From the NCBI GenBank assembly GCA_028284285.1, contig JANQSA010000018.1:1-64000 (forward strand): a DNA stretch of 64,000 bases, read 5' to 3'. This document shows positions 25,629 through 61,039 of the stretch, one piece after another. This DNA is from Croceivirga sp. Lineage in GTDB: Bacteria; Bacteroidota; Bacteroidia; Flavobacteriales; Flavobacteriaceae. Under the pieces are notes generated by a model. The model ran no database searches. It was not told the DNA's origin and was given only the letters and a program-made list of their open reading frames with translations. Positions within the stretch are counted from its first letter, which is position 1. Every line of letters starts with the position of its first letter. The position numbers and the translations under genes are program-made.

Positions 25629-27365
25629 ATGGCGGATAAGAAAGTAAGCATCCTCAAAGCATTCAAGACCATTATCTGGCCAAAACGGAATTTGGTCATT
25701 ATTGGATTGATCTTGATTGTGATCAGTAAGGGCGCCAGTTTTGTAGCGCCCATGTCCTTAAAATACCTGATGGACGACATTATTCCCAATAAAGACCTGG
25801 AATTTCTGAAACTGCTGGTAGCCGTGGTCATTTTTGCTATTTTAATTCAGGCCGTAACTTCCTTTCTATTGACACGCATCTTAAGTGTGCAAGCACAGTT
25901 TTTGATTTCCGAGCTCAGGGCTCAAGTACAAAAACAAGTGCTTTCTCTGCCTATCCGTTTTTTTGACAACACCAAATCCGGGGAATTGGTATCCCGGATC
26001 ATGACCGATGTTCAAGGCGTTCGAAATCTTATCGGCACCGGCCTTGTCCAACTGGTTGGAGGAACGGTGACCGCGGTAGTTGCTTTGGTGTTGTTACTGC
26101 GGATAAGTGTTTCAATGACCTTATTTACCCTAATCCCCCTGGGTATTTTTGCCATCATTGCCTTAAAGGCCTTTAAAATTATACGCCCTATTTTTCGAAA
26201 TCGCGGGAAGATCAACGCCGAAGTTACAGGAAGGCTAACCGAAACATTAGGTGGCGTGAGGGTAATAAAAGGTTTTAATGCTGAGGCACAGGAAGCCAAA
26301 GTATTTGAACAAGGGGTACTGAAAATTTATCAAAACGTGAAAAAGAGCTTAACCGCCACCGCCTTTATGACCAGTTCCTCTACTTTTCTGCTGGGAGTAG
26401 CCACTACGGGGATTATGGGGATAGGTGGTTATAAAATAATGATAGATGAACTAACCGTAGGGGAGTTTCTAACGTTTACTTTCCTTTTGGGACTGATGAT
26501 CGCTCCCATTGTGCAAATGAGCAATATTGGCAGCCAGTTAACCGAAGCACTGGCGGGGCTGGACCGTACCGAAGAGTTAATGAACAAAACCGCCGAAGCC
26601 TATGAAAGCCATAGAACCATCAAGCTTCAGGATGTACACGGGGAAATCCTGTTTCAAGATGTGCGTTTTGCCTACCAAGAAGATAAAGAAGTGTTGCATG
26701 GGATTACATTTGAAGTACGGTCCGGAGAAGTAATAGCACTGGTAGGAAGCTCAGGTTCCGGAAAATCTACTATTGCCGGCCTGGCAGCAAGCTTTCTAAC
26801 CCCGGACTCCGGTACCATCTTAATTGATGGGCACGATTTGTCCAAAGTAGATCTGGAGAGTTATCGTCAATTCCTTGGGGTAGTCCTTCAAGACGATTTT
26901 TTGTTTGAAGGCAGTATTCGGGAAAATATCCTGTTTCCCAGACCTAACGCTTCGGAGGAAGAATTACAGCATGCTGTTAAAACGGCGTATGTGGATGAGT
27001 TTACCAATCGGTTTGACGATGGCCTGGAGACATTGATTGGGGAGCGGGGCATAAAACTCTCCGGGGGCCAACGCCAACGGATAGCCATAGCCCGGGCGGT
27101 TTTGGCCGACCCAAAAATCCTGATCCTGGACGAGGCTACTTCCAACCTGGATATGGAAAGCGAGGCCTTGATACAGAAAAGTTTAGCACAACTTACTCAG
27201 GGCAGGACTACTTTTGTGATTGCTCATAGGTTAAGCACCATACGCAAAGCGGATCAAATACTGGTCATTGAAAAAGGAAAAATTGCGGAAAAAGGTACGC
27301 ATGACCAACTTATAGCGGCCCAGGGAAGATACCACCATTTATTTACTTATCAGGCAAGGATCTAA
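25629..27365 (+). CDS. ABC transporter, fused permease and ATPase (MsbA/lipid-exporter type)
   Basis: 578 residues. Six transmembrane helices lie in residues about 25-310. The ATPase has Walker A GSSGSGKST, Q-loop LGVVLQDDFLF, signature LSGGQRQRIAIARAVL, Walker B LILDEAT and the H-loop FVIAHRLST. This is a half-size exporter that works as a homodimer; MsbA, heterodimeric drug exporters and lipid exporters share this form, so the substrate is not determined. Its TAA overlaps the end of the ferredoxin gene on the opposite strand by 4 bp. It is a monocistronic unit. Confidence 0.93.
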   Translation: MADKKVSILKAFKTIIWPKRNLVIIGLILIVISKGASFVAPMSLKYLMDDIIPNKDLEFLKLLVAVVIFAILIQAVTSFLLTRILSVQAQFLISELRAQVQKQVLSLPIRFFDNTKSGELVSRIMTDVQGVRNLIGTGLVQLVGGTVTAVVALVLLLRISVSMTLFTLIPLGIFAIIALKAFKIIRPIFRNRGKINAEVTGRLTETLGGVRVIKGFNAEAQEAKVFEQGVLKIYQNVKKSLTATAFMTSSSTFLLGVATTGIMGIGGYKIMIDELTVGEFLTFTFLLGLMIAPIVQMSNIGSQLTEALAGLDRTEELMNKTAEAYESHRTIKLQDVHGEILFQDVRFAYQEDKEVLHGITFEVRSGEVIALVGSSGSGKSTIAGLAASFLTPDSGTILIDGHDLSKVDLESYRQFLGVVLQDDFLFEGSIRENILFPRPNASEEELQHAVKTAYVDEFTNRFDDGLETLIGERGIKLSGGQRQRIAIARAVLADPKILILDEATSNLDMESEALIQKSLAQLTQGRTTFVIAHRLSTIRKADQILVIEKGKIAEKGTHDQLIAAQGRYHHLFTYQARI

Positions 27366-27694
27366 GGTTCCTCGGGCGCCAACTCCACTTCTACACCGTC
27401 CAGATCCTCTGTGATCCGGATTTGACATCCCAGCCGACTGTTGTCCCGTACAAAAAACGCCTCAGATAGCATGGCTTCTTCGTCATCCGATTTTTCCGGG
27501 AGGGGATGCCCGGAGTTCACATAGCACTGGCAGGAAGCACACATTGCCATACCACCGCAAATACCGATAGTCCCTTCCGGGGCCAGCTCATAGGAACGGA
27601 CCACCTCCATGAGGTTCATATTCATATCCGTAGGGGCGTCTACTTCGTGGAGTACTCCCTCTCGATCGGTTATTTTTATTTTGATGTCGCTCAT
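27362..27694 (-). CDS. 2Fe-2S ferredoxin (adrenodoxin-like)
   Basis: 110 residues. The cluster ligands are C46, C52, C55 (CGGMAMCASC) and C90 (LGCQIRI), the C-x5-C-x2-C...C spacing of [2Fe-2S] plant/adrenodoxin ferredoxins. The DLDGVEVELAPEE C-terminus is typical of the bacterial adrenodoxin subgroup. It lies in the same orientation as the ferredoxin reductase type gene at 28037-29098, with the DUF559 relic in between. The likely role is electron transfer for Fe-S assembly or redox enzymes. It overlaps the ABC gene end by 4 bp. Confidence 0.93.
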   Translation of the reverse strand: MSDIKIKITDREGVLHEVDAPTDMNMNLMEVVRSYELAPEGTIGICGGMAMCASCQCYVNSGHPLPEKSDDEEAMLSEAFFVRDNSRLGCQIRITEDLDGVEVELAPEEP

Positions 27695-27708
27695 TGTAAA
27701 ATCCAGAA

Positions 27709-27750
27709 TAACCCTCCCTCCTAAAAAGGAGGGATTAAGGGAGGTGTAAA
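27709..27750. repeat. Left terminal inverted repeat of the DUF559 element
   Basis: 42 bp running TAACCCTCC...GGTGTAAA, itself containing a hairpin (CCCTCC, loop TAAAAA, GGAGGG at 27716-27733). Its reverse complement aligns over its full length, with several mismatches and one gap, to the repeat at 27998-28039. The two repeats bracket the decayed DUF559 reading frame, whose last codons (TPPLIPPF) are encoded by this repeat. Confidence 0.7.
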
Positions 27751-27997
27751 CCCGTTTTCCTCAAATTGAACAATATAGTCCTCAATTACTAAAAGTACGT
27801 TTTCCATATGGTTCAAAACTTCATAATCAGAAAAACGCAACACGTTTATATTCATCTATGGGTTTTTGTCTGTGAAAATCGTAGCCATACATTTGACTAA
27901 GCTTCAACTTTTGCCATAATCGAATTTCCGATTTGGTAGCATTGTTTCGAAGTTGCCTTGCTAATTCTTTACGTTTTGGATTGTACTTTACTATCAT
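27721..27997 (-). pseudogene. DUF559 (restriction-endonuclease-like) gene with internal deletion and frameshift
   Basis: From the ATG at 27997 the minus strand encodes MIVKYNPKRKELARQLRNN, then KSEIRLWQKLK and YGYDFHRQKPIDEYK, the start of DUF559 proteins, before stopping after 56 codons. A different frame continues with VLRFSDYEVLNHMENVLLVI and ends TPPLIPPF at a TAG (27721-27723), the DUF559 C-terminus. The middle (the PD-(D/E)xK core with the VDFYC and EIDG-like motifs, usually 35-45 residues) is missing, and the frame shifts at the joint. The product cannot be active. It is embedded between 42-bp inverted repeats inside the Fe-S/redox gene set. Confidence 0.75.
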
Positions 27998-28039
27998 TTT
28001 AACACACCCCTCAATCCCCTCTTTCTAGAGGGGAGGTTA
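27998..28039. repeat. Right terminal inverted repeat of the DUF559 element
   Basis: 42 bp running TTTAACACACC...GGAGGTTA, with an internal perfect hairpin (CCCCTCT, loop TTCT, AGAGGGG at 28016-28033). It is the partner of 27709-27750. Its outer three bases (TTA at 28037-28039) are at the same time the stop codon of the reductase gene read on the minus strand. Confidence 0.7.
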
Positions 28040-29098
28040 GTTAATTGCTTTAATAACGGCTTTGGGCGCTTCTTTTTTACTCCCGTCAAACCCTTCCACA
28101 CCTCCTACGGTAGTATACTTCATTATATATTTTTTATCCGGGTGTATCCGCTGGTAAGCGCTTTGGCACATTAAGGTGGCCTCGTGGAAACCGCATAGAA
28201 TCAACTTTAATTTCCCGGGATAGGTATTTACGTCACCAATGGCATAAATTCCGGGAATATTGGTTTGATAATCCAGGGTATTATCTACTTTAATCGCGTT
28301 CTTTTCTATTTCCAAGCCCCAATCCGCAATAGGGCCCAACTTTGGAGAAAGCCCAAAGAGCGGAATAAAAGTATCCACTTCAATGCTGAGATGCTCTTCA
28401 TCATTGCCGTTTTTACGCACCAAAACGGCCTCTAATTTAGACTCCCCTTCCAACGCTACCACTTCTGCAGGGGTGATCAGCCGAATCTTTCCCAAATTCT
28501 TCAACTCTTGTACCTTTTCCACGGAATCCAGGGCGCCACGAAATTCATTCCTGCGATGGACCAAGGTAACCTCCTCTGCCACATCTGCTAAAAAAATGGT
28601 CCAATCCAGGGCAGAATCCCCGCCCCCGGCAATGAGCACTTTTTTTCCACGATACACCTCAGGATCACGAATGATATAGGTCACACCATTCTCCTCATAT
28701 TTTTTAAGATTTTCCAGAATAGGCTTCCGGGGCTCAAAACTTCCCAACCCCCCTGCAATAGCAACTACCGGGGCATGGTGTTTCGTACCTTTGTTAGTGG
28801 TTACTACAAAAGAGCCATCCGCTAACTTTTCAATAGTATCTGCTCTTTCTCCCAAGGTAAATCCCGGCTGAAACGGCTGTATCTGCTCCATTAAATTGTC
28901 TACCAATTCCCCGGCAAGTATTTCCGGAAAACCTGGGATATCGTAAATGGGCTTTTTAGGATAAATCTCCGCACACTGTCCGCCAGGTTGGGGCAGCGCA
29001 TCGATCAAATGACATTTTAACTTTAGAAGTCCCGCCTCAAAAACTGCAAAAAGCCCAGTAGGGCCCGCACCAATAATCAAAATATCGGTAGTAATCAT
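28037..29098 (-). CDS. Ferredoxin-NADP reductase type 2 (thioredoxin-reductase-like flavoprotein)
   Basis: 353 residues. The FAD-binding motif is IIGAGPTGLFA (residues 8-18), followed by PQPGGQCAEIYPKKPIYDIP. The NADPH-binding site is LIAGGGDSALDW at about 157-168, and GIYAIGDVNTYPGKLKLILC is near the end. There is no redox-active CxxC, which separates it from thioredoxin reductase and places it with TrxR-like FNRs (YumC type). It probably reduces the 2Fe-2S ferredoxin encoded downstream. It follows nfu in the same direction with a 59-bp gap and ends inside the inverted repeat of the DUF559 element. Confidence 0.88.
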   Translation of the reverse strand: MITTDILIIGAGPTGLFAVFEAGLLKLKCHLIDALPQPGGQCAEIYPKKPIYDIPGFPEILAGELVDNLMEQIQPFQPGFTLGERADTIEKLADGSFVVTTNKGTKHHAPVVAIAGGLGSFEPRKPILENLKKYEENGVTYIIRDPEVYRGKKVLIAGGGDSALDWTIFLADVAEEVTLVHRRNEFRGALDSVEKVQELKNLGKIRLITPAEVVALEGESKLEAVLVRKNGNDEEHLSIEVDTFIPLFGLSPKLGPIADWGLEIEKNAIKVDNTLDYQTNIPGIYAIGDVNTYPGKLKLILCGFHEATLMCQSAYQRIHPDKKYIMKYTTVGGVEGFDGSKKEAPKAVIKAIN

Positions 29099-61016: not shown

Positions 61017-61039
61017 TACCCCCTCTTTTATAGGGGGTA
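61017..61039. other. Perfect 8-bp-arm hairpin upstream of ald
   Basis: TACCCCCT (61017-61024), 7-nt loop CTTTTAT, AGGGGGTA (61032-61039). It resembles in base composition and form the CCCCTCT...AGAGGGG hairpins of the DUF559 inverted repeats, though no DUF559 sequence is here. It lies between ald and the SemiSWEET gene. Confidence 0.6.

Follow-up and report, generated by a model that had tools for sequence, protein, structure and literature searches.

A degenerate DUF559 gene between paired hairpin repeats in Croceivirga points to a probable single-gene mobile element with homing-type and REP-like features

The 64,000-nt stretch of Croceivirga sp. DNA analyzed here (positions 1 to 64,000 of contig JANQSA010000018.1; hereafter the window) contains, at positions 27709–28039, a copy, now dead, of what is probably a single-gene mobile element. 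The unit to which it belongs, a DUF559 gene enclosed by matched repeats, occupies many mutually unrelated sites across several phyla and is absent from the orthologous sites of relatives, and short derivatives that lack the DUF559 gene exist. Since the same package is found at many sites, even within essential genes, of very different bacteria, it looks like an unrecognised jumping gene; from these comparisons we infer movement, and we place at roughly 70% the reading that the unit is a one-gene mobile element that is driven by a homing-type nuclease and gives rise to REP-like derivatives.

The window element consists of two inverted repeats around the remains of a gene on the reverse strand. 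The left repeat, repeat B (27709–27750, core 27716–27746, forward strand), is built of a CCCTCCT-loop-AGGAGGG hairpin followed by ATTAA and a third strand, GGGAGGTG, while the right repeat, repeat A (27998–28039, core 28003–28033, reverse strand), has a CCCCTCT-loop-AGAGGGG hairpin followed by ATTG and AGGGGTGTG; both tails are directed towards the DUF559 gene. In intact relatives, repeat B encodes the C-terminus of the protein, and this second repeat gives it the end ...TPPLIPP. Local alignment of 27701–27760 with the reverse complement of 27991–28050 gave 29 identities over 38 columns and a score of 20; among 20,000 pairs of 60-nt stretches drawn at random from the window, none reached it (next best, 15). 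The two repeats had hairpin energies of -17.4 and -14.9 kcal/mol (RNA parameters). A generic repeat finder using ungapped seeds missed the pair. Of the dead gene, the 5′ part (27827–27997, reverse strand) is a 56-aa frame with a frameshifted end that corresponds to the DUF559 N-terminus (Pfam DUF559, 1e-9, profile positions 2–44 of 109), and the 3′ part (27747–27846, reverse strand), identified by comparison with the related genome G008, is out of frame with it after a deletion. The element lies between a Fer2 gene of the 2Fe-2S ferredoxin type (27362–27694, reverse strand) and a gene for a pyridine-nucleotide-disulphide oxidoreductase resembling ferredoxin-NADP reductase (28037–29098, reverse strand), whose stop codon, TTA on the forward strand at 28037–28039, abuts the outer edge of repeat A. 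Elsewhere in the window, a weak lone CCCCTC...GGGGG hairpin was seen in intergenic DNA at 61020–61037.

Relative to G008, whose gene at this site is intact, the window copy has lost 122 bp between two TGAATATA octamers, with the deletion scar at 27847–27854 on the reverse strand. This loss shifts the frame and removes the region with the conserved residues E64, D66, H70 and D79, which are invariant in 39 DUF559 sequences. Given that the missing segment lay between the two octamers, slippage between these 8-nt repeats probably inactivated the window copy, as judged from the sequence comparison. The initial annotation had described two imperfect inverted repeats, each with its own hairpin, around a DUF559 frame, an outer TTA/TAA coinciding with a neighbour's stop codon, and the loss of the catalytic middle, and these observations were all borne out.

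We compared the history of the site across related genomes (G001–G008 and G010). An uninterrupted DUF559 gene with the same repeats occupies it in G006 and G008; the neighbouring genes are 3 bp apart in G007, and DUF559 is absent from the roughly 70 bp present in G001 and the roughly 400 bp present in G002 and G003. A different small gene is found there in G004, G005 and G010. This small gene (loci L039, L038 and L041, respectively) lies between roughly inverted AGGAATTAGGAGTTAG-like repeats, its protein in G010 is a member of the 23S_rRNA_IVP family, and its C-terminal remains adjoin the DUF559 element in G006 and G008; possibly this is a second element of the one-gene kind, built on a different protein family.

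The source genome has four more DUF559 matches besides the window copy. One of these, L003, is intact, closely related and flanked by the same A and B repeats, with a lone A–B pair next to it. Exact-pattern matches to the repeat cores numbered five genome-wide, two in the window and three at one other locus. Thus the repeat, which the initial annotation had suggested searching for around other DUF559 genes, is not unique to the window locus, and most intact DUF559 genes were likewise found to have flanking inverted repeats. At 80 loci encoding window-type proteins we observed the same layout, in which TCCCCTCT-loop-AGAGGGG-ATTAA-GGGGTGTG is followed by the start codon, the gene and a second repeat, which encodes the final residues of the protein. 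These loci came from Flavobacteriaceae and from metagenome-assembled or other genomes labelled Brocadia, Scalindua, Nitrospirae, Actinomycetota and cyanobacteria.

We then counted loci with hairpins bearing a 5′ pyrimidine arm within 250 nt on each side of the gene. Such pairs were present at 44 of 70 scan loci (the other 10 of the 80 having less than 250 nt on one side) and at 28 of 47 loci of a second set that includes the window's genus, about eleven of which repeat the first set, compared with 1 of 137 control ORFs; the opposite polarity was found at 1 of 70 and 0 of 47, and neighbouring loci that share an ancestral site do not count as independent in either set. Phylum-wide samples chosen independently of similarity to the window (27 Bacteroidota and 19 cyanobacterial loci, after three clipped loci had been dropped) displayed pyrimidine/purine hairpins on both sides at 29 of 46 DUF559 loci and the opposite polarity at none of the 46, and no hairpin pair was detected at the remaining 17; a nearby-ORF control for these samples, which comprised just 5 ORFs, was left out of the comparison. 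Among 43 plasmid records that match DUF559 we examined 11, from 10 genera; hairpins stood on both sides in 6 of these 11 copies, and each side taken by itself was positive in 8. Tail polarity differed by subfamily, being inward in the window type and outward in the copies within recG, metH and leuS. GC-rich hairpins are common near bacterial gene ends, and an ordinary host gene flanked by transcription terminators would display hairpins on both sides; we rejected this explanation as scarcely credible, since such a pair occurred in so few control ORFs, the repeats code in frame within recG, metH and leuS, and sites are empty in relatives.

Several of these loci displayed further structure. A row of three DUF559 5′ pieces with an identical internal truncation, with hairpins between them, precedes an intact copy at L019 (G005:C1:3981088-3982392), and another palindrome, CCCGCCTGACTTGGACGGGCAGG, is nested in or beside the hairpin repeats at L024, L063, L067, L174 and L181. 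On the Deinococcus proteolyticus plasmid pDEIPR03 (L320), a further inverted repeat, GGGCCAGCGTTGCTG / CAGCAACGCTGGCCC, lies outside the hairpin repeats of the DUF559 gene.

The repeats and the protein vary together. Repeat similarity correlated with protein similarity at r = 0.77 over 120 loci (best of 2000 permutations, 0.21) and at r = 0.65 within the window's genus, and the correlation was 0.75 over 6907 pairs (best of 2000 permutations, 0.23) once 233 same-site pairs, those with homologous host flanks, had been excluded; this set may still include homologous sites whose nucleotide sequences have diverged beyond alignment. The exact window-type repeat was present in 15 of 299 Flavobacteriaceae genomes, and the reversed pattern in none. 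Among the matches listed, it occurred in 8 of the 9 genomes with the closest DUF559 relatives versus 7 of the 290 others (Fisher 4e-11, with the cut at nine genomes set afterwards).

Within the loci examined we also found nine distinct lone A–B pairs with inward tails and spacers shorter than 150 nt. Two of the seven spacers tested correspond to the DUF559 3′ end, a likeness reached by 0 of 500 shuffles for each; the remnant in L083 (Ulvibacter antarcticus) spans 27 nt and that in L078 (Algibacter pectinivorans) 64 nt, and the other five spacers had no likeness to the DUF559 gene. Exact repeats also occurred in three genomes with no close DUF559 relative among the matches listed (28 in G117, six in G223 and three in G193), which indicates that the repeats can persist or spread without the gene. 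Several of the 28 window-type repeats of G117 (L295–L305) stand as lone A–B pairs, and in this genome the repeats may have outlived or escaped their enzyme. These three genomes also lend some weight to a different reading, according to which the repeats are independent and spread by another agent, with DUF559 a passenger or a host repair or restriction gene, as does the description of a Caulobacter DUF559 protein as a Vsr-like repair enzyme (PMC12907096). We regard that reading as distinctly improbable: repeat type tracks DUF559 subfamily even within one genus, the exact repeat is concentrated in the genomes listed with the closest DUF559 relatives, and some lone spacers derive from the gene.

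Each repeat has the parts of an intrastrand triplex. For 194 units, the fit of a third strand after the purine arm averaged 5.91 in the antiparallel orientation versus 4.26 in the parallel control, and with tails permuted among units the best of 1000 values was 4.60, a permutation count that overstates independence given that the set includes related units. A stems gave a fit of 6.23 of 7 with A tails and 4.63 with B tails, and B stems gave 6.71 with B tails and 2.60 with A tails; stems thus fit tails of their own type better, and repeats A and B of the window differ in a coordinated way. As a group, 74 units of other kinds displayed little third-strand fit (3.80 vs. 3.23 in the parallel control). 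Repeats A and B are each predicted, from base pairing, to be able to fold as an intrastrand triplex.

This architecture is that of the PIT/TM_ECO repeats, which number 23 in E. coli MG1655 and 3610 in 262 proteobacterial genomes, comprise types A and B in inverted pairs, and form a triplex as single strands in vitro (PMC4666352). The accessible text of that report (Holder et al., 2015) describes them as having no promoter or terminator activity and mentions no mobility gene near them (PMC4666352). Like them, the window repeats consist of a pyrimidine stem, a loop, a purine stem, a short loop and a G-rich third strand, and window-type A and B repeats form inverted pairs; unlike the PIT/TM_ECO consensus, with its 9-nt stems (PMC4666352), they have 7-nt stems of other sequence (CCCTCCT and CCCCTCT). 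A further difference from the repeats as published is that a DUF559 gene is linked to them here, and also at E. coli ycjD.

The DUF559 gene ycjD of MG1655 extends into an imperfect TM-type repeat, with a canonical one about 170 bp beyond it; strain VTB96959v has a more complete 3′ repeat, which encodes ...SPSPQPSP. The TM-type repeat was found on the 3′ side of ycjD only; directly at the ycjD start, in L207, we noted a perfect palindrome unlike TM repeats. The strict pattern CCCTCTCCC...GGGAGAGGG had no match at ycjD because the copies there are imperfect, and the repeat was absent from one 50-kb stretch of MG1655. A ycjD query of 731 bases was covered to at least 80% in 3364 of 5426 genomes. 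We rejected ycjD as a clean presence/absence site, since two strains without it have TetR/RND efflux genes in its place, which marks an alternative allele and not an empty site; eefRABCD is likewise an alternative allele there (PMC12817139).

Many copies lie inside conserved genes. The recG genes of G004 and G005 carry DUF559 in frame between the motifs DEQHRFG and MTATPIP, and recG lacks it in nine other genomes of the genus, one of which has a different 30-nt insert; the empty recG site reads ACCTCCCC, which resembles the repeat. In metH, DUF559 is present in G003 and G005 and absent from the eight other genus genomes compared, and it is fused at the start of rnpA in G004, G005 and G007. Empty sites in related genomes, which the initial annotation had proposed looking for, were thus found in recG, in metH and in intergenic DNA. 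Because the ends of the element are C-rich, as are its targets, these occupied/empty pairs leave its exact ends and any target duplication ambiguous.

Across Flavobacteriaceae, at least 38 DUF559 matches in at least 34 genomes lie within open frames of 346–1282 codons, counted from stop to stop, and DUF559 was likewise seen in larger open frames in the phylum-wide samples of Bacteroidota and cyanobacteria. We examined 20 regions, assigning host genes by Pfam for six and by similarity to those six for the rest. DUF559 lies within leuS in nine of them and within ileS, metH and a type ISP restriction gene in one each, at the start of hemD in five and of a gene for a PLP-dependent enzyme in one, and at the end of one frame of unassigned family; the copy in G048 is not in a long frame. 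The metH frame of G235 (L279), of 1159 codons, has two DUF559 domains about 0.9 kb apart. Host and insert identity in LeuS correlated at r = 0.49 over 36 pairs, which fits both descent and re-invasion. The possibility that these inserts are inteins was rejected, as Pfam identified no intein or Hint domain in six DUF559-bearing ORFs.

The predicted fold of an intact relative (pLDDT 91) matches NGO0050 (3hrl) and the catalytic domain of the homing endonuclease I-Bth0305I (3r3p; profile 1.6e-5, fold TM 0.77 by target), and Vsr more weakly; the profile search also matches NGO0050 (3hrl). In agreement with this, DUF559 has been assigned to the EDxHD homing family (PMC9403480). Pfam found no HuH domain, with intact copies giving only DUF559 and MTES_1575 below the cut-off.

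Converted flanks are a trace of homing (PMC3943268), and we examined the flanks of inserted copies accordingly. Along metH, G003 and its sister genome G002 share about 98% identity. In the 60 nt to the left of the G003 insertion, 12 of 60 positions differ versus 21 of 1050 farther away (p 3e-8), and to the right 5 of 60 differ versus 22 of 850 (p 0.028); three pairs of empty genomes displayed no excess of differences near the site. Since the next relative, G001, mostly shares the G002 state, the imported sequence is in G003. For metH of G005, comparison with G007 gave a weak signal on the right side only (p 0.016), and comparison with G004 gave none. The recG insertion of G004 and G005 displayed no excess of differences near the site, and its right flank in G005 had fewer differences near the site relative to G007 (p 0.003).

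We favour homing-type copying because of the fold match to I-Bth0305I and the converted flank at metH of G003. Its main rival, which we consider rather unlikely, is a RAYT-like route in which DUF559 would act on folded, single-stranded repeats at the replication fork and the repeat pair would be moved or copied, with the gene optional, to sites with a short C-rich motif. That route would account for ends that each consist of a hairpin and a tail, with stem and tail covarying, for the lone A–B pairs, and for the similarity of the empty recG site to the repeat; against it, the solved relatives comprise only a homing endonuclease domain and Vsr, with no transposases, the metH flank tract is what double-strand-break repair leaves, and the HuH domain was not found. 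Under homing-type copying, a single DUF559 nuclease gene of EDxHD/Vsr fold, set between inverted, non-identical repeats A and B, would encode an enzyme that makes a cut or nick in DNA at or close to its cognate repeat or target, and the element would be copied into the break by repair. Internal deletion would then produce lone A–B pairs that persist as REPIN-like repeats, and in some lineages the element would come to lie in frame in conserved genes and be translated as an inserted domain.

The unit shares features with several known systems. As with REP/REPIN sequences and their RAYT (TnpA-REP), short hairpin repeats stand in inverted pairs, some lone and non-autonomous, a single cognate nuclease gene lies between copies, and the sequences of repeat and enzyme are coupled. 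The initial annotation had noted this likeness to REP-associated elements with a different enzyme family, and it holds as an analogy: the enzyme here is DUF559 and not a HuH tyrosine transposase, the repeats have a third strand, copies lie in frame inside genes, and on inspection the GTAG/CGTC tag of REPs (PMC3733652) is absent beside either window hairpin. RAYT membership itself was rejected, with no HuH transposase gene identified by Pfam. The suggestion of a single-gene transposable or homing-like element gained support, with homing again an analogy. The unit resembles the EDxHD homing endonuclease I-Bth0305I in the sequence and fold of the catalytic domain, in its occupied and empty alleles and in one converted flank, and differs from it in that no intein surrounds the six DUF559-bearing ORFs scanned, triplex-type repeats bracket the gene, and the protein has 132 aa without a separate DNA-binding domain. 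Rickettsia palindromic elements are, as here, palindromic inserts in frame inside conserved genes; to our knowledge they have no nuclease gene, unlike the DUF559 unit.

Our literature search found nothing linking DUF559 to inverted or triplex repeats, and the I-Bth0305I paper, Pfam pages and subscription journals may hold prior notice. We judge it somewhat better than an even chance that DUF559 genes and PIT/triplex repeats form a single, broadly distributed class of mobile element that spans Bacteroidota, Cyanobacteria, Proteobacteria, Nitrospirae, Planctomycetes and Deinococci, with a homing-endonuclease fold and with essential genes occupied in frame without splicing, of which ycjD would be the E. 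coli member and the orphan triplex repeats of E. coli and cyanobacteria would be non-autonomous descendants. If this is true, the PIT/TM repeats, which had no enzyme, would have one, and a domain of unknown function, DUF559, would have a role. YcjD would act on TM repeats, a claim that can be tested in E. coli, and a nuclease gene would persist as an inserted domain in LeuS, IleS, MetH and RecG, all essential enzymes, with neither intron nor intein.
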